Assembly: GCF_024662215.1 (NCBI RefSeq)
Contig: NZ_CP096115.1
Span: 2,046,001-2,110,000, forward strand
Length of the DNA: 64,000 nucleotides
DNA from: Methanoplanus endosymbiosus
GTDB lineage: Archaea > Halobacteriota > Methanomicrobia > Methanomicrobiales > Methanomicrobiaceae
Reading direction: 5' to 3'
In this document: piece after piece, positions 46,117-58,497 of the stretch
How positions within the stretch are numbered: position 1 is the stretch's first letter
Layout of the letters: every line of letters begins with the position of its first letter
Made by a program: the position numbers and the translations under genes
The notes under the pieces: model-generated
What the model saw: only the letters and a program-made list of their open reading frames with translations
Told to the model about the DNA's origin: nothing
The model's database searches: none

Positions 46117-46992
46117 TTATCTGGAATCATATTCTCTCTTAGGTTCACTCAGCAGATCAAATTCTGAGTTATAACCATCCGGGGGGGTAATCCTCAGGTA
46201 ATCTCTGTATATTTTTTCTTTGTAGTCCGGGCCAATCTCATTTACTGCTGAAATGAAGGCATCATATGTTCCTTTTCCCCCGATGTAGTCCCAGAAATCA
46301 TTTCCAATTAAGACAACATCGTCATTTTTCATATCAAACCATCTCGCCGGAAAACTCCATGAATAATTCTCGCGTGTCCCGTAAGGATTGTAGGGCAGGG
46401 CAAAATATGCACTATCAACTACAGGCGGTTCCATGCAGTGAAGTTTCAGAATCTTCTCCTTACTGACTTTTGTCTGATCACTGTTTGGAAGCGGAGCTTT
46501 AAGCTCAAAGGCATATCTGCCACCATTACTTCGGTCCTCAACATAGAGGTCACAGACAACAGAAACCGGGATCAAATCTCCTCTTCCTTTTTTTATGTAG
46601 GTAAGTTCCCTGTTCCAGTCCGGTCTGATTCTTTCATTCTCCTTTGTTGCATGTTCAAGCCGGTTTAGGGTTTCTGCAATTCTGTTTAGGCGTTTTTCCC
46701 TGATCATACCGTCAATTCTGTATCCGGTTGTTCCATATCCCATTCCGTTAGTGGCAGCAACTACAGCCAGTTTTTCCCAAACTTTCCCAAACGGAGTTAC
46801 AAAACGCCTCTCAAAGTGTGATCCTTTAAATATTTCATCCGGAACAAGTGCAGCATAAAGTGGTTTTTTCAGATGATGTGTCTCTTTAACAAAGGGATCA
46901 GAACACAGAACCTTGTCCATAATTCTATCCATCATGTCTTTGATGACAATCTGAATGTCATCTTTCATCTTATTAGGGTCAGACATATTCAT
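46117..46992 (-). CDS. Type II restriction endonuclease, TdeIII-like
   Basis: 291 residues. It resembles the TdeIII family: KKPLYAALVPDEIFKGSHFERRFVTPFG near the N-terminus, then the likely PD-(D/E)xK active site in VCDLYVEDRS...RYAFELKAPLPNSDQTKVSKEK (E-L-K with the upstream Asp). TdeIII and its relative MjaII cut GGNCC; the recognition site here is inference. The gene begins 8 bases after the methyltransferase gene ends, as in a complete M-R pair. Confidence 0.75.
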   Translation of the reverse strand: MNMSDPNKMKDDIQIVIKDMMDRIMDKVLCSDPFVKETHHLKKPLYAALVPDEIFKGSHFERRFVTPFGKVWEKLAVVAATNGMGYGTTGYRIDGMIREKRLNRIAETLNRLEHATKENERIRPDWNRELTYIKKGRGDLIPVSVVCDLYVEDRSNGGRYAFELKAPLPNSDQTKVSKEKILKLHCMEPPVVDSAYFALPYNPYGTRENYSWSFPARWFDMKNDDVVLIGNDFWDYIGGKGTYDAFISAVNEIGPDYKEKIYRDYLRITPPDGYNSEFDLLSEPKREYDSR

Positions 46993-47000
46993 ACCAAAAA

Positions 47001-48227
47001 TCAGATTTTCCGCCAGACAAATATAGACTCGTAGAACTGTCCCGCACGCCTGCCTGTTCTCCGGTTGACATGCCTTTGAATTATATCCTCAACCTCAACG
47101 TCAAGGGAATCTGCAATGCCGTCATATAGGTTGTCCTTGTCATTGGCAACAACAATAAGGCGGCCTTCAGGTTCCATACTTTTAATAGTTCTGCGGAAGA
47201 CCTCGGCTATATTTTTCTGGTAATTTTCCTTTGCTTTTTTGCTCTTTCCGCCTGCGGCAGGACCTATTTCTTTCTCTCTTTTATCCTCAAGCCCAAGCAG
47301 ATGATAAGCATACGCATGCTGTTCATGGTAATCTATCAGTCCCACATAAGGTGGACTTGTAATTACTCCGTTTGATTTTGGAAAATCTGCGTAAAGGCAG
47401 TCCTCATGATGTATTTCAACCGATGCGTCAGTTTTCAGGTCAGAATATTCCGTGACTCTCCTAATGGTGTCGTTACTATACCGCTTTAAAAATTTAAATG
47501 CAACCTGCGTGGGATAACATGTCCTGTTATGCTTATAGCAGTGATATGGTTCTGTTACTGGTTTTTTTGGGAAGTCAAGATCAAAATGTGTGGTAAGTCT
47601 TGCAGATCTGGCTGATCTGCTTAGAATAACTTTTAAGAGTTCTTTGTATTGGTAATCTCCGCTCTCAATAAAATACCGGTATGTCAGAAGTTCTCTGAGT
47701 GCCTGTGGTGCAAACCACATATTAAGATATTCATCATCTTCCACTGAAAGAAAAGGAGTTCTTTCACATTCTTTCCAGAGTGTCTGCTGTCCTAGCTCAG
47801 TCTGAGTTGCAACACTGACTTTTTCAAGAATGTCAAGGACTTCCCTTCTCATTACTGAGGTGTCGTAATTGTCGGTCTTTGCCCCTGAAAGAAGAACATT
47901 AAAAGCTGAAATGTCATATCCAACTGCATTGATTCCAAGTTCATTGGCCTGAACAAGGGTGGTTCCAGAACCGCAGAACGGATCAATTACTGTCTGTCCC
48001 CTGACAAAATATTTCCTGAGGAAAACTTCCACGAGCTGAGGTATATATTTTCCAAGATAAGGGTGGAGACGGTGAACATGCTTGGTACGTATCCTCTCCG
48101 GAAGATCTTTCTCGCCCCAGTTTAGATTCAGGCTTTCTGCTGGTGTAAGTGCCGTAACTTCTACTGGATTGGTTGGACATTCATCAAAGGTGTATAATCC
48201 CACTTTTTTCTCTTCATTGGTAATCAT
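47001..48227 (-). CDS. Site-specific DNA methyltransferase (N4-cytosine/N6-adenine, beta class)
   Basis: 408 residues from the ATG at 48227 with AGGG just upstream; an in-frame TTG 18 bases earlier is possible. It has the catalytic motif TSPPYVGL and the SAM-binding motif DPFCGSGTTLVQANELG. Motif X/I comes first and the SPPY motif later; the DPF(C)GSGTT form with SPPY is typical of N4-cytosine enzymes. It protects host DNA from the restriction enzyme encoded just downstream. The modified base is inferred. Confidence 0.88.
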   Translation of the reverse strand: MITNEEKKVGLYTFDECPTNPVEVTALTPAESLNLNWGEKDLPERIRTKHVHRLHPYLGKYIPQLVEVFLRKYFVRGQTVIDPFCGSGTTLVQANELGINAVGYDISAFNVLLSGAKTDNYDTSVMRREVLDILEKVSVATQTELGQQTLWKECERTPFLSVEDDEYLNMWFAPQALRELLTYRYFIESGDYQYKELLKVILSRSARSARLTTHFDLDFPKKPVTEPYHCYKHNRTCYPTQVAFKFLKRYSNDTIRRVTEYSDLKTDASVEIHHEDCLYADFPKSNGVITSPPYVGLIDYHEQHAYAYHLLGLEDKREKEIGPAAGGKSKKAKENYQKNIAEVFRRTIKSMEPEGRLIVVANDKDNLYDGIADSLDVEVEDIIQRHVNRRTGRRAGQFYESIFVWRKI

Positions 48228-48319
48228 GTTAAAGTCCCTGTGCAAAAATTATAATTCGGATCTTTGGGTTAAATCTGATCAGTTTGTTAATATGAGTTGA
48301 ATCCGGAACATTAAAAACA

Positions 48320-49983: not shown

Positions 49984-50943
49984 TTAAGACATAATTCCGG
50001 CAATGACCATCTCCCCGAAATCTGCTGTATTAAGGTCTCCACCGAGATCAGGAGTTGAAATGCCTTTATTAAGTAAAGCCTGTATCTGCTCTTCAATCTC
50101 CTTTTTGGCCCCATCAACACCAAGATAATCAAGAAGCATACCTGCGCTTCTCAGTGCCGCAACCGGGTTTGCAATGCCTTTTCCGGCAATGTCGGGTGCA
50201 CTGCCGTGAACCGGCTCAAACAGGGCATTATTCTCTCCGTAGTTTCCACTCGGAAGTGTGCCCAGTCCTCCGGTTAGGAAACCACATACGTCACTCAGAA
50301 TATCCCCGAAGATATTTGTTGTGACAATTACATCATAACGGTCCGGGTGCATCAGGACATCGAGGGCAAGGGCATCAATATACATAGGTTTTGAAGCAAT
50401 GCCGTTCTCTTTGGCTACCTTTGTGCAGGTATCCCTGAAGAGAACATCAGACTTCATCACATTGGCCTTATTGCCTATGACAATTTCTCCTTTTCTCACC
50501 TTTGCCCTCTCGCATGCAAACTCTGCAATCCTTTCGCTTCCCTTCTCTGTTACAACCCTGAGTGTGGTCGATCTCTCACTTCCGATCTCCTCAATGCCGG
50601 AGTAAAGCCCTTCAGTATTCTCCCGAACGATCTCGATGTCAAATCCCTCACCAAAGACCGGCCTTAGGTTTGCATAGAGATCAAGTTCCTTTCTTATTCT
50701 GAGTATGACGCTTCTGTAGTCCGGGTGAGGCACCGTTGTGATTGCACCGAATAAGACAGCATCAGATTCTTTCAGGAGATTAATCTCCTCATCAGTGACT
50801 GCCTCTCCGGTTCTCTCCCACCTGCCATAACCAACCTCGGCATAGAGGTACTCAGCATCCGGAAGGTAATGCCTGACGGCTTCTTCAGCAACCGGTGTAA
50901 CTTCCTTTCCTATACCGTCCCCCGGCACAACAGCGATCTTCAT
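49984..50943 (-). CDS. aksF: Isohomocitrate / 3-isopropylmalate dehydrogenase family enzyme AksF
   Basis: 319 residues from the ATG at 50943, which shares ATGA with the upstream stop and has GGAG 6 bases before it. Beta-decarboxylating dehydrogenase signature: GDGIGKEV at the N-terminus, IVRENTEGLY, KANVMKSDVLFRD, DALALDVLMHPDRYDVIVTTNIFGDILSD and GSAPDIAGKGIANP. In methanogens AksF oxidises (homo)n-isocitrates in the chain elongation that yields 2-oxosuberate for coenzyme B. Assignment to AksF rather than LeuB rests on the neighbouring aksA and homoaconitase genes. Confidence 0.82.
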   Translation of the reverse strand: MKIAVVPGDGIGKEVTPVAEEAVRHYLPDAEYLYAEVGYGRWERTGEAVTDEEINLLKESDAVLFGAITTVPHPDYRSVILRIRKELDLYANLRPVFGEGFDIEIVRENTEGLYSGIEEIGSERSTTLRVVTEKGSERIAEFACERAKVRKGEIVIGNKANVMKSDVLFRDTCTKVAKENGIASKPMYIDALALDVLMHPDRYDVIVTTNIFGDILSDVCGFLTGGLGTLPSGNYGENNALFEPVHGSAPDIAGKGIANPVAALRSAGMLLDYLGVDGAKKEIEEQIQALLNKGISTPDLGGDLNTADFGEMVIAGIMS

Positions 50944-51746
50944 CTTCTTCTCCATGCACTTACTGCCTCATAAACCGCATCAGAGATCTCCTTTGGAGAT
51001 ACTCCCCAGTGCACTGCAACGCCGCATCTCTCACCCGTGTACAGTCCGGATCTCTCCGATCGGCAGCAACGGGCAACAAAAGGCTCCTCCTCTGCAAGAT
51101 CAAGCGGACAGATGTTGATAAATTCAAATTCTGCCTCCTCACCATACCACTCGGCAACCATCTGTCGTGCAGTCAGGCATCCGGCAATCCTCTCGCCGCC
51201 TTTTAGCCTGTCATTGTCAAGCGTCTTATCAAAACCGGCCGCCCGGCAGGGATAGACATCTGCCTCAATATCTTCAATGTCAATGATGTGGTGTACAAAC
51301 TCAATCTCAAGCCCGCCGAATATCCCTGTTCTCTCAAGGTTTTTGACAGTTTCGGATAATACCGGAAATGGCGGTTTTGAGTCGTAAATATGCACCTTCA
51401 GAAGAACAGAAGGATCAGGATCTGCAACAAAGGTCATATGGCCGTCAAAGCCCTGAAATATGGTGCATCTCTCCCCCGACTCAGAGGCTTTCCTGATTAG
51501 ATCTGCCCTGTCGTGCAGAATGACTTTTTCCGGGTACAGCCATGTCTCATCCGGCCCTGAGATCTTCTTATACTCCCTGACACCTCTTAGAAGCCCGCCT
51601 TTATCATCAACAGAGACATTTCCGGTCTCAAAAGTCCCGTCCGGAAATTTCCGGATGAGATACCTGCTTAGAAAATAGATCTGATCCTCACCATAGGGTG
51701 CAGACTCCGCCATTCCTACCTCTTTGCAGTGGCGGGGAAAGATCAT
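50940..51746 (-). CDS. Conserved protein of unknown function in the aks operon
   Basis: 268 residues; ATG shares ATGA with the stop of the homoaconitase small-subunit gene. No signal peptide or membrane span. Notable features: HHIIDIEDIEADVYPCRAAGFDK, and a C-terminal half rich in Cys and charged residues (AGCLTARQMVAEWYGEEAEF, ICPLDLAEEEPFVARCCRSERSGLYTGERCGVAVHWG) that could form a metal or substrate site. No family function is known to me. Its tight coupling with AksF and homoaconitase suggests a step in the same pathway. Confidence 0.65.
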   Translation of the reverse strand: MIFPRHCKEVGMAESAPYGEDQIYFLSRYLIRKFPDGTFETGNVSVDDKGGLLRGVREYKKISGPDETWLYPEKVILHDRADLIRKASESGERCTIFQGFDGHMTFVADPDPSVLLKVHIYDSKPPFPVLSETVKNLERTGIFGGLEIEFVHHIIDIEDIEADVYPCRAAGFDKTLDNDRLKGGERIAGCLTARQMVAEWYGEEAEFEFINICPLDLAEEEPFVARCCRSERSGLYTGERCGVAVHWGVSPKEISDAVYEAVSAWRRR

Positions 51747-52216
51747 CTCCTCTTCCTCATATATTCAATAAGCCCGCCTGCCCTGATAATCTCCTTCATA
51801 CTCTCGGAGATCGGTTTTGCATCATAGCGGACACCGCCAACTTCAACCCGGTCTTCATCGGCTGAGAAGATAACTTCGTCACCGTCCGTACATTTTATCT
51901 CATCTGTTTCAAAGACCAAAATTCCGGTGTTCACAAGATTTCTGAAAAATATCCTTGCAAACGAGGGTGAGACTACGGCAAGAACCCCGGCCTCCTTCAG
52001 TGCAATTGCCGCCTGCTCGCGTGACGATCCGCAGCCTACATTCTTTCCGGCAATAATAACTGAACCTTTGAGCCTGCCTGCAATCTCCGGATCATAGTCC
52101 TCAAAGGCATGATCTGCCCAGACCTTACGGTCCTTTGTCCGGAGGTACCGCCCGGCGATTATCATATCGGTATCGACATCCTCACCGATGCATACCGCTT
52201 TTCCTCTCTCTTCCAT
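51743..52216 (-). CDS. hacB: Homoaconitase small subunit
   Basis: 157 residues, swivel domain of the two-subunit methanogen homoaconitase. The substrate-selecting loop reads GRYLRTKD: YLRT is the form reported for homoaconitase in methanogens, whereas isopropylmalate isomerase small subunits carry YLVY-like loops. NVGCGSSREQAAIALKEAG is the conserved phosphate/substrate loop. Works with the large subunit on homocitrate and its longer homologues. Starts 2 bases after the large-subunit stop. Confidence 0.87.
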   Translation of the reverse strand: MEERGKAVCIGEDVDTDMIIAGRYLRTKDRKVWADHAFEDYDPEIAGRLKGSVIIAGKNVGCGSSREQAAIALKEAGVLAVVSPSFARIFFRNLVNTGILVFETDEIKCTDGDEVIFSADEDRVEVGGVRYDAKPISESMKEIIRAGGLIEYMRKRR

Positions 52217-52218
52217 TT

Positions 52219-53430
52219 TCAGTTCTCCTCCGGAGATCTGATCTCACCTGCAAGGGCACTTGCGGCGGCGGTTGACGGAGAGCAGAGATAATATTCAGCA
52301 CCGACACCCATTCTGTTCTTAAAATTCCGGTTGGCGGTCGAAAGCCCCACTTCTCCCTCGCCTAATACGCCCATGTGCATACCAAGGCATGGTCCGCATC
52401 CCGGTGTTCCGATGGCACACCCTGCCTGTATAATGTCAAGCAGAATTCCGGTGGAGACAGCCTTCTCAAGCACACTCCTGGAAGCCGGGACAACAACCGT
52501 CCTCACCTTTACTGTCCTGCCCCTGACGATATCAGCAAATCTCTTCAGGTCCTCATATCTCCCGTTTGTGCACGTCCCGACAAAGACCTGATCAAGGGCT
52601 GTTCCGGCATACTTCTCAACCGGAACTCCGGTATCTACTCTGTGAGGGACTGCAAGCATTGGTGACAGGTTCTCAAGATCGATATCGATCTCCTTTGCAT
52701 ATGACGGATTCTCAGCAGCCTGTCTCTCAGATTCAATGCCCAAATGTGCGAGATATTCTGCCGTCACTTTATCTGAATAAAAGAGACCTGCCTTTGCCCC
52801 GGCCTCAATTGCCATATTTGACATTGTAAGGCGGCCTTCCATCGGGAGACTTTCAGCACCTGATCCTGTGAATTCCAGTGCCATATATGAAGCACCATCC
52901 ATACCAAGCATCCGGATATATTCAAGCGTGGCATCCTTGGCTTCGGTATGCCCGGTCAGTTTGCCTTCAAGATTTACCTGGATTGTCTCCGGAACCTTAA
53001 ACCATGTCTCACCGGTCTCCCAGATGGCAGCCATATCCGTTGCCCCTACTCCGGTTGCGAATGCACCGAATGCACCGAGCGTGCAGGTATGCGAGTCAGC
53101 ACCTACAACAATCTCTCCCGGCCTGCATACGCCTTCACTCATCACCTGGTGGCAGATCCCGCATCCCACATCATAAAAGTTAATCCCGGCATCCTTTGAA
53201 AAATTTCTCAGTTCGTGCTGAAGGTCCGCCGTTGTCGAGTTGTTTGCCGGAACTATATGGTCATAAATTATTGAGATATTATCCGGGTTTTCAGGACGTT
53301 CTCCGCCCATTTTCCTGAATGAATCAAGCGCTAAAACGCCTGTTCCGTCATGTGCAAAAGCCCTGTCAACCTTCCGGTCAACAAAACTCCCTTCCCTTCC
53401 ACCTAATATTTTTTCAGAAAGTGTTGTCAA
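52219..53430 (-). CDS. hacA: Homoaconitase large subunit
   Basis: 403 residues from a TTG start at 53430 that shares TTGA with the aksA stop and has GGAGG 7 bases before it; an ATG frame reaching 53535 would run 100 bases into aksA and is less likely. Iron-sulfur aconitase domains: DHIVPANNSTTA, YDVGCGICHQVM, GADSHTCTLGAFGAFATGVGATDMA, and the cluster Cys residues in FVGTCTNGRYEDL and GTPGCGPCLGMHMG. Isomerises homocitrate-type acids in the 2-oxosuberate route to coenzyme B. Confidence 0.88.
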   Translation of the reverse strand: MTTLSEKILGGREGSFVDRKVDRAFAHDGTGVLALDSFRKMGGERPENPDNISIIYDHIVPANNSTTADLQHELRNFSKDAGINFYDVGCGICHQVMSEGVCRPGEIVVGADSHTCTLGAFGAFATGVGATDMAAIWETGETWFKVPETIQVNLEGKLTGHTEAKDATLEYIRMLGMDGASYMALEFTGSGAESLPMEGRLTMSNMAIEAGAKAGLFYSDKVTAEYLAHLGIESERQAAENPSYAKEIDIDLENLSPMLAVPHRVDTGVPVEKYAGTALDQVFVGTCTNGRYEDLKRFADIVRGRTVKVRTVVVPASRSVLEKAVSTGILLDIIQAGCAIGTPGCGPCLGMHMGVLGEGEVGLSTANRNFKNRMGVGAEYYLCSPSTAAASALAGEIRSPEEN

Positions 53431-54554
53431 TGCTTCTCCTCCCTGGCCTCTTTTAATATTGCAAGGAGAACTTCCGGTGTTATGCTGCACTTCCCTTCGC
53501 TCTTGGTTTTTATCTGCTCTAAAACCCAGGCGCATTCATCTCTGGTTATGCTGCATCCAAGACATTTTACTACATGCTCAAGAGCTTTTCTTCCGGTATG
53601 CTTGCCAAGTATGAACTTTCTCTGCCCGCCCACAAGTTCGGGTGGGAAATACTCATATGCAGACGGTTCAACGAGCATTGCGGCGATATGTATCCCGCTC
53701 TCATGCGAGAATGCATGGTCTCCGACAACAGCCTTGTTCTTTGCAACCGGAATTCCGGAATACTCCTCCACCATTTTAGAGGTCTTCATAAGTGGTGTCA
53801 GGTTATAACGGTCAATTCCGCCTTTCATCCTAAGTGCCACAAGCACCTCTTCAAGAGCAGCATTTCCGGCACGCTCCCCGATTCCGTTTACTGTTGTATG
53901 CAGCTGAAAAGCCCCTGCCTGTGCGGCTGATATTGTATTGGCGGTTGCACAGCCCATATCGTCATGGCAGTGCACGCAGAGCGGGTTTTTCAGGGTCTCT
54001 GTAACATCAAGGACAGTATTGTACATCTCAACCGGAGTCATGCACCCGACAGTATCGGCAATACTGCTGTACTTTGCACCGACCTCATATCCCCTCGCAA
54101 ACATCTCTTTTAAGAACGAAATGTCAGTCCTTGACCCTTCCTCGGCGGAGAACCTCACGTCAATGCCGTGTTCGGTTGCGTACTCCACCATTCTGAGGGC
54201 CTCTTCAAGCATCTCCCCGCGGGTCTTTTTGTATTTAATTCTTATATGCAGGTCGGAAGTTGCAAAGAATATTGAGACGAGATCGACATCGCAGTCAATG
54301 GCGGCATCCACATCGCCCTTAACGGCCCTTGACAGGCAGCATGTCCGTGCGGAAAGGCCCATGTCTGCTATCTCCCTGACGCATCTCTTCTCATTCTCAG
54401 AGACACTCGGAAATCCTGCCTCTATGACCTCAACCCCTATCTCATCGAGCATAAGGGCGATATTCTTCTTCTCTTCACAGGTAAATGAGACACCCGGTGT
54501 CTGTTCACCGTCTCTTAATGTTACATCACATATTTCAACATTTAATTCTTTCAT
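53427..54554 (-). CDS. aksA: Homocitrate synthase family enzyme AksA
   Basis: 375 residues from the ATG at 54554, with GGGGGAG 5 bases upstream; an ATG at 54617 lies inside the previous gene. Isopropylmalate/homocitrate synthase TIM barrel: EICDVTLRDGEQTPGVSFT at the start (metal Asp), GFPSVSENEK, and the metal HxH motif in LCVHCHDDMGCATAN. C-terminal HESGIHIAAML and KHTGRKALEHVV are typical. AksA condenses acetyl-CoA with 2-oxoglutarate and its longer homologues. LeuA or CimA identity is possible but the aks/hac neighbours favour AksA. Confidence 0.82.
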   Translation of the reverse strand: MKELNVEICDVTLRDGEQTPGVSFTCEEKKNIALMLDEIGVEVIEAGFPSVSENEKRCVREIADMGLSARTCCLSRAVKGDVDAAIDCDVDLVSIFFATSDLHIRIKYKKTRGEMLEEALRMVEYATEHGIDVRFSAEEGSRTDISFLKEMFARGYEVGAKYSSIADTVGCMTPVEMYNTVLDVTETLKNPLCVHCHDDMGCATANTISAAQAGAFQLHTTVNGIGERAGNAALEEVLVALRMKGGIDRYNLTPLMKTSKMVEEYSGIPVAKNKAVVGDHAFSHESGIHIAAMLVEPSAYEYFPPELVGGQRKFILGKHTGRKALEHVVKCLGCSITRDECAWVLEQIKTKSEGKCSITPEVLLAILKEAREEKH

Positions 54555-55716
54555 GTTTCTCCCCCACAGGGCATGCCCCGCTGATAAGGATGACCTTTGG
54601 CCGGTCAGGCTTTTCATTAATATAATCTGATAACTCTCCGGTGCTTCCGGAACCGATCGACTCAGATCTGATAATTTCAGGTTCTGCCCACTGTATGTAC
54701 CTTAACAGATCGGGCGAGTCCTGCCCTCCGGTCATTCCCATCCTTTTGTTTAAGAGGACAATGACCAGAACAGGCAGTTCTTTCTCAAAAACATCGATCA
54801 GGGAGTTAATTCCGGAATGGAGCAGTGCATAGTCGCCGGTAAGTGCGATGCCTGTACTCTTTGCGGCAGCTGCAACTGACGATCCAAGGCCGTAATTTGC
54901 AAGGCCGAAGTTATACGGCGGATTTTTGGAGAGAAGTGAGCATCCTGTGTCACAGATGACCTCTCTTCCGGAATCTTTTATTGCTGAGAATAATTCTTTG
55001 TACGGGCAGTTTCTGCACAATGTCCGTGCATAACCACGGTCCGGCATGGTCTCAGGATTTTCTGTTCTCGTCCGGACTTCTGCATTATGCCGGCCTGCCG
55101 GAGGATATGTGAGCGGAAATTCGGTCTGCTCATACATATCCACCGTTATATTTCCGGCTGCCTCACACCTCCCTTTCATAGTGAACAGAGGGTTGGCAAG
55201 CTCTCCTTTCAGGTCTTTGCGTATCACAGTGCCGGATTTGGCACTGTTTTCAAGAATGTCTTCAGTAACTCTCAGTATGGCCGGCCTTGAGAACCGCTCA
55301 GATGCCTGAAAGGCCATTTCTGCGGATGAGAAGAGGTTATCCCTGTTGGGCACTATGAGGGGTACATCTGAAACCTTCGCATAATGCGTTGAATCCTGGC
55401 AGGTCTGTGATCCAATGGCTTTTGTATCATCTCCGGCAATTATCACAACCCCGCCGATTATCCCCTGGTACACGGCATTTACCATAGGATCTGCGAGAAT
55501 GTTCACTCCGGCATTCTTTACAATCACTGCCGAACGTCTGCCTGAGAGAGAATCACCGAGGGCATATTCAAGGGCTGTCTTCTCGTTTATGACATACTCT
55601 GCATCAACTTTCTCAGCAAGCTCTGTCACCGGATATCCGGGGACGGTATAGATGGTATCTGCTGACTTTAATAGTGCATCTGCAAGAATATCACAGCCGG
55701 ACTTCTGATTTGTCAT
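54535..55716 (-). CDS. IorA-like thiamine pyrophosphate enzyme lacking a ferredoxin domain
   Basis: 393 residues. The N-terminal Pyr-type half (PGYPVTELAEKVDAEYVINEKTALEYALG) and C-terminal PP-type half with the TPP/Mg motif (TGDYALLHSGINSLIDVF...LLNKRMGMTGG) match indolepyruvate oxidoreductase alpha subunits (IorA), but the usual C-terminal 2[4Fe-4S] domain is missing and no IorB follows. The remnant CRNCPYKELFSAI is retained. Without an electron acceptor a non-oxidative 2-oxoacid decarboxylase is plausible. It sits directly after the radical SAM gene (0 bases) and overlaps aksA by 20 bases. Confidence 0.75.
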   Translation of the reverse strand: MTNQKSGCDILADALLKSADTIYTVPGYPVTELAEKVDAEYVINEKTALEYALGDSLSGRRSAVIVKNAGVNILADPMVNAVYQGIIGGVVIIAGDDTKAIGSQTCQDSTHYAKVSDVPLIVPNRDNLFSSAEMAFQASERFSRPAILRVTEDILENSAKSGTVIRKDLKGELANPLFTMKGRCEAAGNITVDMYEQTEFPLTYPPAGRHNAEVRTRTENPETMPDRGYARTLCRNCPYKELFSAIKDSGREVICDTGCSLLSKNPPYNFGLANYGLGSSVAAAAKSTGIALTGDYALLHSGINSLIDVFEKELPVLVIVLLNKRMGMTGGQDSPDLLRYIQWAEPEIIRSESIGSGSTGELSDYINEKPDRPKVILISGACPVGEKHERIKC

Positions 55717-56682
55717 CTAAAAATCCCTCCCCGGTACGAGATCACAGCCGGTGCAGGCTGTGCACATAGTCTCTGCAACTGTGGTGTCGAGGCCGTTTTT
55801 CCGGATTTCAACACCAAGATACTCTGCAATGTCCAGGATTCTCCTGCGTGACGGCCTCTTAAAATCAGACATCTCTGCTTTTGGTGTCAGCGGACGTATG
55901 ACCGGAATTATGCCAAGAGCTGTGAGTTCTGAGATGCAGGCCTTCATCTCAGAATCACTCTCACCTGCACCGAGTATTATATTGGTAAAAACCCTGTTCT
56001 TCCCGAAAAGCCGGACAGATTCGATGAGGGCATCCATAATCTGCTCTCTCTCCATGCCCGGACAGATCTCTCTGAAGAGTTTATCTGTTGCAGTTTCAAG
56101 GTTGAACTTCACCTCCAAAACTCCGAGGCCGTGGAGCTTCTCCGGTGTATCCTTAAGGGGGTATATCGAAACCCCTAACGGAAGCCCGAATTTCATAACT
56201 CGCTTCACAACCTCAATAACCCTCTCCTCGTCCTCTTCAGGTGAGCCTATCACTCCGCTGGTAAGTGAGATGCAGTCTATATCCGGCAGCACCTCCTCAA
56301 TCATCTCTTCAATCCTCTCCGGACTCTTGAACTTCTTCTCCTGGGTTGGAACAGAGCAGTACCTGCACCTGAATATGCAGCCCTCACTGACTGTAATAAA
56401 TGCCTGCCGGGGGCAGTGAAGGGCGGCAGGTTCTACCCTCCCTTCGACTTCCTCTCCCTCAAATTTAAGTACGGCATTATCTCTGTCAGTTATGACTATC
56501 TCAACCGGACTGTCATCTGCAATGCTTAACCGGACTCTCATGTTTCCGGATGAAAAAAAGACCGATCCACCCTCTCCTGATGACGGGCCTGCCGTTGAGA
56601 CTGAAATTATACCCTTAATTCCACCTGTAATCTTTGCAGTGCCCGCTTCCAGAAGCCCGGCCTTTAATTCACTCCATTTCAT
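55717..56682 (-). CDS. Radical SAM protein of the coenzyme B-type operon
   Basis: 321 residues. The [4Fe-4S]-binding motif CIFRCRYCSVP (CxxxCxxC) sits at about residues 107-114, followed by a TIM-barrel-like run (LTSGVIGSPEEDEERVIE, LPLGVSIYPLKD, EVKFNLETATDKLF, TNIILGAGES). A C-terminal Cys cluster (ETMCTACTGCDLVPG) could hold an auxiliary cluster or metal. The ATG shares ATGA with the stop of the mmp11 gene. The reaction is unknown; sulfur insertion or a chain-modification step in a methanogen cofactor is an inference from context. Confidence 0.8.
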   Translation of the reverse strand: MKWSELKAGLLEAGTAKITGGIKGIISVSTAGPSSGEGGSVFFSSGNMRVRLSIADDSPVEIVITDRDNAVLKFEGEEVEGRVEPAALHCPRQAFITVSEGCIFRCRYCSVPTQEKKFKSPERIEEMIEEVLPDIDCISLTSGVIGSPEEDEERVIEVVKRVMKFGLPLGVSIYPLKDTPEKLHGLGVLEVKFNLETATDKLFREICPGMEREQIMDALIESVRLFGKNRVFTNIILGAGESDSEMKACISELTALGIIPVIRPLTPKAEMSDFKRPSRRRILDIAEYLGVEIRKNGLDTTVAETMCTACTGCDLVPGRDF

Positions 56683-57557
56683 ATTTTCAGAGCCTCTTCG
56701 TAATCTGTATAAAAGGGAATTGCAGCCGCAGCACCGATTATACCACGCCCTTCGATTCTTATCTCAAGAAGGTCTCTTATCTCTTCAAATTCAGCAGGAC
56801 CTACTTCTCCGGCTTTAACCTGCTCTCCATATTTTCTGAGTGGTGAGGTGTCAAAACCGGAAAATGCACAGAGGCCGGTCTCCTCCGATAGTGTGTACTT
56901 CCTGACAAGCTCTTCAAACCGGTTCATCAGTTTTTCAGGTTCTCTGGTGGCGAATTCACATGCGATTGCCACACAGTTTTTTGTTCTGTACGGCACAGGA
57001 AAGAGCTGGACTATAGTGTGGGAGAGATACCTCGAATTCTCATCCTCAACTGCCTTTGATATATTATGAGCAAGTGTCCACGTTGCACCCTCCTCGGCAG
57101 TATCGGTATCATCAATTCCGATTACAACCCTCTGCATCTTTGGAAGGGTGATTGTTGAACCGGCAACTTTTCCGCCGCCGCAGGGTTCTGATGAACTTTT
57201 TATGACACCCTTTGCAGTGGATCTGCACACCGATGCTCCGACTCCTCCGCCGCCCATGCCTTTGTATGAGATCTCTATTTCATCCCCGGAAATTTCCGCA
57301 CCGCATATTCCGGCAGGGAAGTATGAACCCTCAAGCTCAAGGTCCACACAGCCTGTACTCAGCATAAATCTCTGGGTGTTTCCCACGACTCTGACTGATT
57401 CTGTGAGCGGACTTTTCCTGTAGTGATTTCCGGCCCACATCGCACCGCCTATGCAGTCAAATTTCTCTATAAGCTCTATCTTTGAACTGTCATCTGAGCC
57501 GATGGCTATGATCTCCGGGTAGGAGATGGAGTAGGGGTTATTAAAGATGTTCTCCAT
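56679..57557 (-). CDS. mmp11: Methanogenesis marker protein 11
   Basis: 292 residues. Recognised by DCIGGAMWAGNHY and GMGGGGVGASVCRS in the N-terminal half, and by GIDDTDTAEEGATWTLAHN around residue 160. GIDDTD is also the signature of the kinase-like domain of TiaS, the tRNA-Ile agmatidine synthetase. The family is restricted to methanogens and has no assigned reaction. The start overlaps the preceding gene by 17 bases. A related but distinct paralogue is encoded just upstream. Confidence 0.7.
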   Translation of the reverse strand: MENIFNNPYSISYPEIIAIGSDDSSKIELIEKFDCIGGAMWAGNHYRKSPLTESVRVVGNTQRFMLSTGCVDLELEGSYFPAGICGAEISGDEIEISYKGMGGGGVGASVCRSTAKGVIKSSSEPCGGGKVAGSTITLPKMQRVVIGIDDTDTAEEGATWTLAHNISKAVEDENSRYLSHTIVQLFPVPYRTKNCVAIACEFATREPEKLMNRFEELVRKYTLSEETGLCAFSGFDTSPLRKYGEQVKAGEVGPAEFEEIRDLLEIRIEGRGIIGAAAAIPFYTDYEEALKI

Positions 57558-58497
57558 ACAGCCCCGCCGCCTCTATTCCTCTGTTTGCCCAGAGCACTGC
57601 ACCAAGTGCACCGATTCTGCCCTTGCTCTTTGCAGAATCAATATACTCTATGCCAAGCCTTTCCGCTTCAGCCTCGCACTCCTCAACATTCAGAACTTCA
57701 GTCTTAATCTTTTCAAGATATGGAGATTCCGGCTGTGTAAGTCCACGCCATACTGCAATGCCTGTATCCTCACTGACAGATCTCTCCTCGATAAACTCCT
57801 TTACAAATGCAAGCAGTTCATCCACCTTATCCGGGCGGACAGCAAAGTTCAGTGCAGATCCTACACAGTTTGTTGTCTTGTTCGGGACCTTCGGGTTTAA
57901 CTGGATGAGCCTCATGTCGAGGTATTCAACACCTTCAATAGTACATGCCTCTGCACATTTGGATGCAAGCACCCAGGTGGCACCTGATTCTTTGGTGTCA
58001 GTGTCATCAATGCCTATTGATATTTTAACATATTTCGGAGAGTATATCCTCGTCCTGCATGTCCTTGCCCCGCCTGCCTTAAGGTCTTCCTCAGTCGGGT
58101 ATTCTGTTCTGATAACACCCGGTGCCTGCGGCAGGCATACTGCAACACCGACACCTGCTCCTGCAATGCCTGCCCAGTTGGTTGCCACAAGGTCACCTTC
58201 TACAGATACACCTTCAAGCGCCTGTCCTCCGATGTCATCTCCGGCTGCACCAAAGTTAATAGGATATCTGCCAAGTTTTGCTGAGATTGTCATAGATGCC
58301 CCTTCTACACTTATTGATTCCACAGCACCTCCGGCACGCCTGCGGTTCATCACATCCCATTCAATTGCCCCCCTGTGGCAGCAGTGCTCAATAATCTCTG
58401 CTTTTTCTGCTTTTTCATCTACTATAACCAGAAATTTTCTGCAAAACATTGTGCCAAAGCGTTCTCTGACCTCTTCGGGAGTTAATATAATAGTCAA
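57541..58497 (-). CDS. Mmp11-related GIDDTD protein, paralogue
   Basis: 318 residues. Same layout as the next gene: an N-terminal half ending in WAGIAGAGVGVAVCLPQAPGVIR and a GIDDTDTKESGATWVLAS core (about 170-187), followed by IQLNPKVPNKTTNCVGSALNFAV and GIAVWRGLTQP. First gene of the run that ends with aksF. No strong ribosome site; the 179 bases upstream are AT-rich. Whether this or its neighbour is the true marker-11 orthologue is not certain; both belong to one superfamily. Confidence 0.65.
   Translation of the reverse strand: MTIILTPEEVRERFGTMFCRKFLVIVDEKAEKAEIIEHCCHRGAIEWDVMNRRRAGGAVESISVEGASMTISAKLGRYPINFGAAGDDIGGQALEGVSVEGDLVATNWAGIAGAGVGVAVCLPQAPGVIRTEYPTEEDLKAGGARTCRTRIYSPKYVKISIGIDDTDTKESGATWVLASKCAEACTIEGVEYLDMRLIQLNPKVPNKTTNCVGSALNFAVRPDKVDELLAFVKEFIEERSVSEDTGIAVWRGLTQPESPYLEKIKTEVLNVEECEAEAERLGIEYIDSAKSKGRIGALGAVLWANRGIEAAGLYGEHL

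Follow-up and report, generated by a model that had tools for sequence, protein, structure and literature searches.

A nine-gene operon of the archaeon Methanoplanus endosymbiosus very probably holds missing steps of coenzyme B biosynthesis, a possibility raised in an initial annotation of the same DNA. The operon lies in a 64,000-nucleotide stretch (contig NZ_CP096115.1, positions 2,046,001 to 2,110,000; hereafter the window) of a 3.16 Mb genome that consists of a single contig and contains methyl-coenzyme M reductase (MCR). MCR requires coenzyme B, which is needed for methane formation. Chain elongation by the aks and hac gene products is established and the later steps of the pathway are unassigned (PMC12068725, PMC3087415); those past 2-oxosuberate are still unknown (PMC12068725). 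Judged by its sequence, one protein of the operon, DUF7714, is a distant relative of the bacterial coenzyme M enzyme XcbA. It is our strongest lead, as a candidate for the thiol-forming step of coenzyme B synthesis, and a better one than the radical S-adenosylmethionine (SAM) protein encoded in the same operon. We regard it as moderately probable that this is a coenzyme B biosynthesis operon following the whole route favored here, in which an IorA-like thiamine pyrophosphate (TPP) enzyme would carry out a decarboxylation, DUF7714 would form the thiol, and Mmp11 would have a more weakly assigned role.

Operon structure and conserved linkage

Gene families were assigned from Pfam and NCBIfam profile matches, read against curated cut-offs (Table 1). 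Nine minus-strand genes fill positions 49984-58497. All the genes listed in the initial annotation are present, and when the junctions were recomputed using its start positions, all eight matched exactly: in order, overlaps of 17 and 4 nucleotides, a junction of 0, overlaps of 20 and 4, a gap of 2, and two further overlaps of 4 nucleotides. The products of aksA and aksF reach no equivalog cut-off; their identification therefore depends in part on context. The genome has two further strong HMGL matches, which sit together away from the operon. In HacB, the specificity loop YLxx carries an arginine (YLRT) in the window and in 77 of the 80 HacB matches of the locus set described below.

Table 1. 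Genes of the operon, with the starts used for the junctions of aksA, hacA, and aksF
Gene or product	Positions	Strand	Profile evidence and remarks
Second Mmp11-like gene (TiaS kinase-like domain), optional	57541..58497	-	TIGR03280 210.3 bits, below cut-off; TiaS_TCKD 60.9 bits; TTG start
Mmp11 (methanogenesis marker 11), candidate ATP-dependent ligase/kinase	56679..57557	-	TIGR03280 319.7 bits (cut-off 255.8)
Radical SAM protein	55717..56682	-	PF04055; CxxxCxxC and C-terminal CxxCxxC
IorA-like TPP enzyme, candidate 2-oxosuberate decarboxylase	54535..55716	-	IOR_alpha-like; TIGR03336 144 bits (cut-off 651); TPP_enzyme_C
aksA-type homocitrate/oxoacid synthase	53427..54554	-	HMGL-like PF00682; ATG 54554, longest open reading frame from 54617
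hacA, homoaconitase large subunit	52219..53430	-	IPMI_arch and hacA_fam over cut-off; TTG 53430
hacB, homoaconitase small subunit	51743..52216	-	LEUD_arch over cut-off; YLRT loop
DUF7714, XcbA-family homologue, candidate thiol-forming enzyme	50940..51746	-	PF24830 279.5 bits
aksF-type homoisocitrate dehydrogenase	49984..50943	-	Iso_dh; LEU3_arch 379.5 bits and AksF2_Meth 324.6 bits, both below cut-offs; ATG 50943

We surveyed a set of 80 named Methanomicrobiales loci, many of them cut by contig ends, which includes Methanoculleus, Methanoregula, Methanospirillum, Methanogenium, Methanolinea, Methanocalculus, and others. DUF7714 is accompanied by hacB and hacA in 79 loci each, by aksA in 74 and by aksF in 72, and also by the TPP gene (70), the radical SAM gene (68), and the first Mmp11 gene (64); the second Mmp11 copy is present in 33 of the 80. 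Gene order is the same throughout, except in a few loci where overlapping calls of open reading frames altered the listing. The linkage of these genes is not due to chance.

A further sample comprised 40 stretches from other Halobacteriota genomes, grouped into numbered genome families (f1-f33); labels like ANME-1-like or Archaeoglobi-like for these families are tentative, being guesses based on gene content and size. Families f1-f6, which belong to the window's own order, keep the gene order, with the exception of f4, where DUF7714 is divergent from Mmp11. The operon is broken in f8, f22, and f30, yet hacB-DUF7714-aksF is intact in all three, and in f8 and f22 the coordinates place Mmp11 directly beside the TPP gene. 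In f14 and f7 the order is hacB-aksF-DUF7714, and the TPP gene adjoins aksA. In almost every class II methanogen and anaerobic methanotrophic archaeon (ANME) sampled, DUF7714 is found between hacB and aksF or next to them. Such persistence of linkage through rearrangement argues for a shared function. Conservation of the linkage extends far past the window genome.

DUF7714, XcbA, and a proposed route to coenzyme B

DUF7714, listed in the initial annotation as an unknown gene, is the only match in the genome to the XcbA model NF052538, at 50.6 bits (E 1.6e-13), the family cut-off of 150 bits not being reached. In a search of 11,546 open reading frames, a profile built from archaeal DUF7714 proteins alone found XcbA at 72.9 bits (E 1.3e-20) and no unrelated match. 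The alignment of the two is full length, and PC, GC, CP, and CC motifs with five invariant cysteines are common to both. A tblastn search of 72,556 plasmids with the DUF7714 protein of the window gave one match, on pXAUT01 of Xanthobacter autotrophicus Py2, at an E value of 0.1 that alone is too weak. The matching gene, Xaut_5051, lies immediately before phosphosulfolactate synthase in a bacterial coenzyme M cluster, and from this position and the NCBIfam family name we read it as XcbA. In a paper on a methanotroph, XcbA is taken to fill, in the synthesis of coenzyme M, the role of a sulfoacetaldehyde dehydrogenase (PMC11507031). The AlphaFold 2 model of DUF7714 has a mean confidence (predicted local distance difference test, pLDDT) of 91.1; a fold search with it against the PDB gave no match with E < 0.001, and a PDB sequence search found nothing. 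A search of the literature found no paper on DUF7714 or on a 2-oxosuberate decarboxylase.

We suggest the following route. AksA, HacAB, and AksF would extend 2-oxoglutarate to 2-oxosuberate, according to the known chemistry of their families, and the IorA-like TPP enzyme would decarboxylate the product to 7-oxoheptanoate. DUF7714, by its homology to XcbA, may then convert the aldehyde of 7-oxoheptanoate to the thiol of 7-mercaptoheptanoate, with its invariant cysteines serving sulfur or cluster chemistry. Mmp11, in view of its TiaS-like domain, may use ATP to activate a carboxyl or a hydroxyl group, for threonine coupling or for phosphorylation. The route assigns no step to the radical SAM protein. 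We put forward as tentative the more specific proposal that class II methanogens use DUF7714 as their coenzyme B thiol synthase, the bacterial branch of its family serving coenzyme M, that together with the TPP enzyme it completes the path from 2-oxosuberate to 7-mercaptoheptanoate, and that Mmp11 is the threonine ligase or kinase.

The suggestion in the initial annotation that the TPP enzyme suits decarboxylation is supported, the enzyme fitting decarboxylation of 2-oxosuberate. Its gene adjoins aksA or Mmp11 and occurs in the same families as DUF7714. The operon protein (393 amino acids) has no ferredoxin domain and falls short of the IorA equivalog, which calls for that domain and 650.9 bits. 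C234, C237, C259, and C382 are invariant in 17 homologues, and the NEK and GD motifs are conserved. Operon-type TPP proteins are found in DUF7714-bearing families and other families show IorA-level scores; two genomes, G134 and G150, are intermediate.

Distribution of the candidate families and alternative readings

From tables of DUF7714 and MCR matches we determined the distribution in 295 Halobacteriota genomes. DUF7714 is found in 121, of which 116 have MCR and 5 do not; a further 43 have MCR only and 131 have neither. DUF7714 thus tracks MCR (Fisher p 4e-38, in a test that takes no account of shared ancestry). Of the five genomes with no MCR match (G033, G140, G159, G047, G054), three are near-complete assemblies of the window's order, so that to explain these by an MCR gene that is missing or went undetected is an assumption. 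The methanogen relative Met12 has lost MCR and the genes for coenzyme M, coenzyme B (AksA-F), and F430 (PMC11176372). It also lacks all four candidate families (DUF7714, TPP, Mmp11, and radical SAM): the genome that we take as Met12 (G006) has no DUF7714 and no TPP match at 1e-10, its Mmp11 score is at TiaS level only, and its radical SAM scores are generic only.

Several observations weigh against the route proposed here. DUF7714 and the operon-type TPP enzyme are absent from MCR lineages such as f10 (ANME-1-like), f12, f18, f24, f28, and MCR-bearing f9; M. jannaschii, the single control by which class I methanogens were sampled, has no DUF7714 match. Other enzymes must perform these steps in MCR lineages that lack the two proteins. 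Mmp11 exceeds its cut-off in the complete MCR-less genomes G024 and G034 (L085, L086), with a divergent radical SAM gene adjoining, so that TIGR03280 is not restricted to methanogens and the link of both families to coenzyme B is weaker. The four invariant cysteines of the TPP enzyme are typical of oxidoreductases, which makes a plain non-oxidative decarboxylase uncertain. Finally, a genetic study points to COG1900 enzymes (Mmp16/L-ASST) as possibly serving coenzyme B (PMC12068725).

The occurrence of Mmp11 in MCR-less genomes led us to reject Mmp11 alone as the key gene, since it is not specific evidence. The initial annotation had assigned the GIDDTD proteins, through a signature shared with TiaS, to a phosphoryl or ligase step, and had named occurrence in organisms lacking coenzyme B as evidence against the candidates. 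The kinase-like link is upheld by structure: in the AlphaFold 2 model of Mmp11 (pLDDT 90.6), the C-terminal half matches TiaS over ~150 residues (Foldseek E 1e-7, probability 1.00, root-mean-square deviation 2.6 A). TiaS couples ATP to C-N bond formation, a chemistry in keeping with either formation of an amide to threonine or phosphorylation by Mmp11. Such contrary evidence was found in part for Mmp11 and the radical SAM protein, which occur in genomes without MCR (G024, G034), and no MCR-less lineage was found for DUF7714. It is a real possibility, if somewhat short of an even one, that the radical SAM protein and Mmp11 belong together in a module of their own, for instance for RNA or cofactor modification, that is merely cotranscribed with the coenzyme B genes. 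Besides G024 and G034, the two genes adjoin in G150, G052, and G189, in each case with no aks, TPP, or DUF7714 gene alongside, and the protein to which Mmp11 is matched, TiaS, modifies tRNA; however, Mmp11 adjoins the TPP gene in f8 and f22 although the radical SAM gene is elsewhere, and both genes are lost in Met12.

That the coenzyme B thiol is made by COG1900 enzymes (Mmp16 and/or L-ASST), with DUF7714 an accessory that, for example, delivers sulfur, reduces an intermediate, or has a regulatory function, seems to us unlikely. In Methanosarcina acetivorans, no strain mutated in both MMP16 and L-ASST could be obtained even with coenzyme M, which its authors ascribe to a likely role in coenzyme B synthesis (PMC12068725), and most MCR lineages without DUF7714 have COG1900. 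Yet the coenzyme B operon holds DUF7714 and not COG1900. Among 35 genomes, COG1900 copies usually number one or two, similarly with and without DUF7714, so that extra copies offsetting the absence of DUF7714 found no clear backing, and in genome G219 DUF7714 is present twice whereas COG1900 is absent. In the window genome, two COG1900 (PF01837) genes are present, neither of which is DUF7714. One, of Mmp16 type, lies at 3066280, ~3 kb from the true ComDE (TIGR03846 over cut-off) at 3069329 (G000:C1:3066280-3069874), outside the operon; the operon TPP enzyme is not ComDE. The genome thus appears to have separate enzymes for coenzyme M. The two G219 copies (L103 9539-10402 and L202 162-1064; genome 99% complete) are divergent DUF7714/XcbA-like proteins scoring 88 and 114 bits with the XcbA model.

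Equally doubtful is that the TPP protein is a ferredoxin-using oxidoreductase converting 2-oxosuberate to an acyl product such as pimeloyl-coenzyme A. Its IorA-type relatives and invariant cysteines are in keeping with this, as is G134, a genome with no MCR, DUF7714, or COG1900. There aksA-hacA-hacB-aksF-TPP form one operon (L199 4991-10241), which ties the TPP enzyme to the Aks product and counts in favor of the route proposed here, and a bioD-bioF-bioU-bioW-bioB cluster needing a C7 precursor lies elsewhere (L215 54-4667). However, BioW activates free pimelate, so that in G134 formation of a coenzyme A ester by the TPP enzyme would be unneeded; moreover, the operon protein lacks a ferredoxin domain, and neither in the window nor in L199 was a gene for a gamma subunit noted alongside the TPP gene. 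The G134 arrangement points to biotin synthesis from a C7 precursor made by the Aks enzymes, and its aks-TPP operon may also be a relic.

The radical SAM protein was left open as a dedicated coenzyme B enzyme. C102/106/109 and C307/310/313 are invariant in 16 homologues, and the family, in which the C-terminal CxxCxxC is retained, occurs in most MCR families, often unlinked, and has relatives in MCR-less genomes. The proposal of the initial annotation that it inserts sulfur, as lipoyl and biotin synthases do, with DUF7714 serving another step, we consider very improbable: it has the additional CxxCxxC beyond the SAM cluster and a weak similarity to LipS2 (52 bits), but other radical SAM families match better, in f8 and f22 the gene lies apart from the others, MCR-less genomes pair relatives of it with Mmp11, and it is DUF7714 that has the thiol-pathway homologue. 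In the closest relative, G218, a second radical SAM paralogue (L197 7571-8380) is interrupted by an in-frame TGA.

Near the operon, at 46117-48245 of the window, lies a pair of genes resembling, in appearance only and with no family search made, a DNA methylase and a restriction-type protein.

Comparison with known systems

Methanosarcina has all four candidate families; with four specific genes, of which two are strongly linked, the coenzyme B question becomes directly testable there. If the role proposed for DUF7714 is true, a common protein family for thiol formation would link bacterial coenzyme M and archaeal coenzyme B, which have been treated as separate pathways, and DUF7714 would be the archaeal branch of a cysteine-rich family whose fold is unmatched in the PDB.

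Mmp11 has in common with TiaS, the tRNA(Ile2) agmatidine synthetase, the GIDDTD kinase-like (TCKD) domain in its predicted fold, but its N-terminal half has no PDB match and its score is far below the TiaS equivalog cut-off. Similarly, the operon TPP enzyme shares TPP motifs and the CxxCP and DxGC cysteines with IorA, the alpha subunit of indolepyruvate:ferredoxin oxidoreductase, although it is shorter and lacks the ferredoxin domain, and the genomes additionally encode, separately, a longer protein that scores at IorA level. The chain-elongation genes resemble those of known coenzyme B synthesis in their arrangement in one operon and in the HacB loop, and differ in the sub-cut-off scores of the aksA and aksF products. 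In coenzyme M synthesis, ComDE is the TPP enzyme that yields the aldehyde, and thiol formation falls to Mmp16 (ComF). The route proposed here would mirror this logic, with a TPP decarboxylase yielding the aldehyde and a second enzyme the thiol, but its TPP enzyme is IorA-like and DUF7714 does not belong to COG1900. XcbA of X. autotrophicus Py2 shares with DUF7714 the five cysteines, PP and WG motifs, and a place in a thiol-cofactor operon; identity between them is ~26% over 183 residues, and the DUF7714 operon makes a C7 chain, whereas that of XcbA makes a sulfonate.

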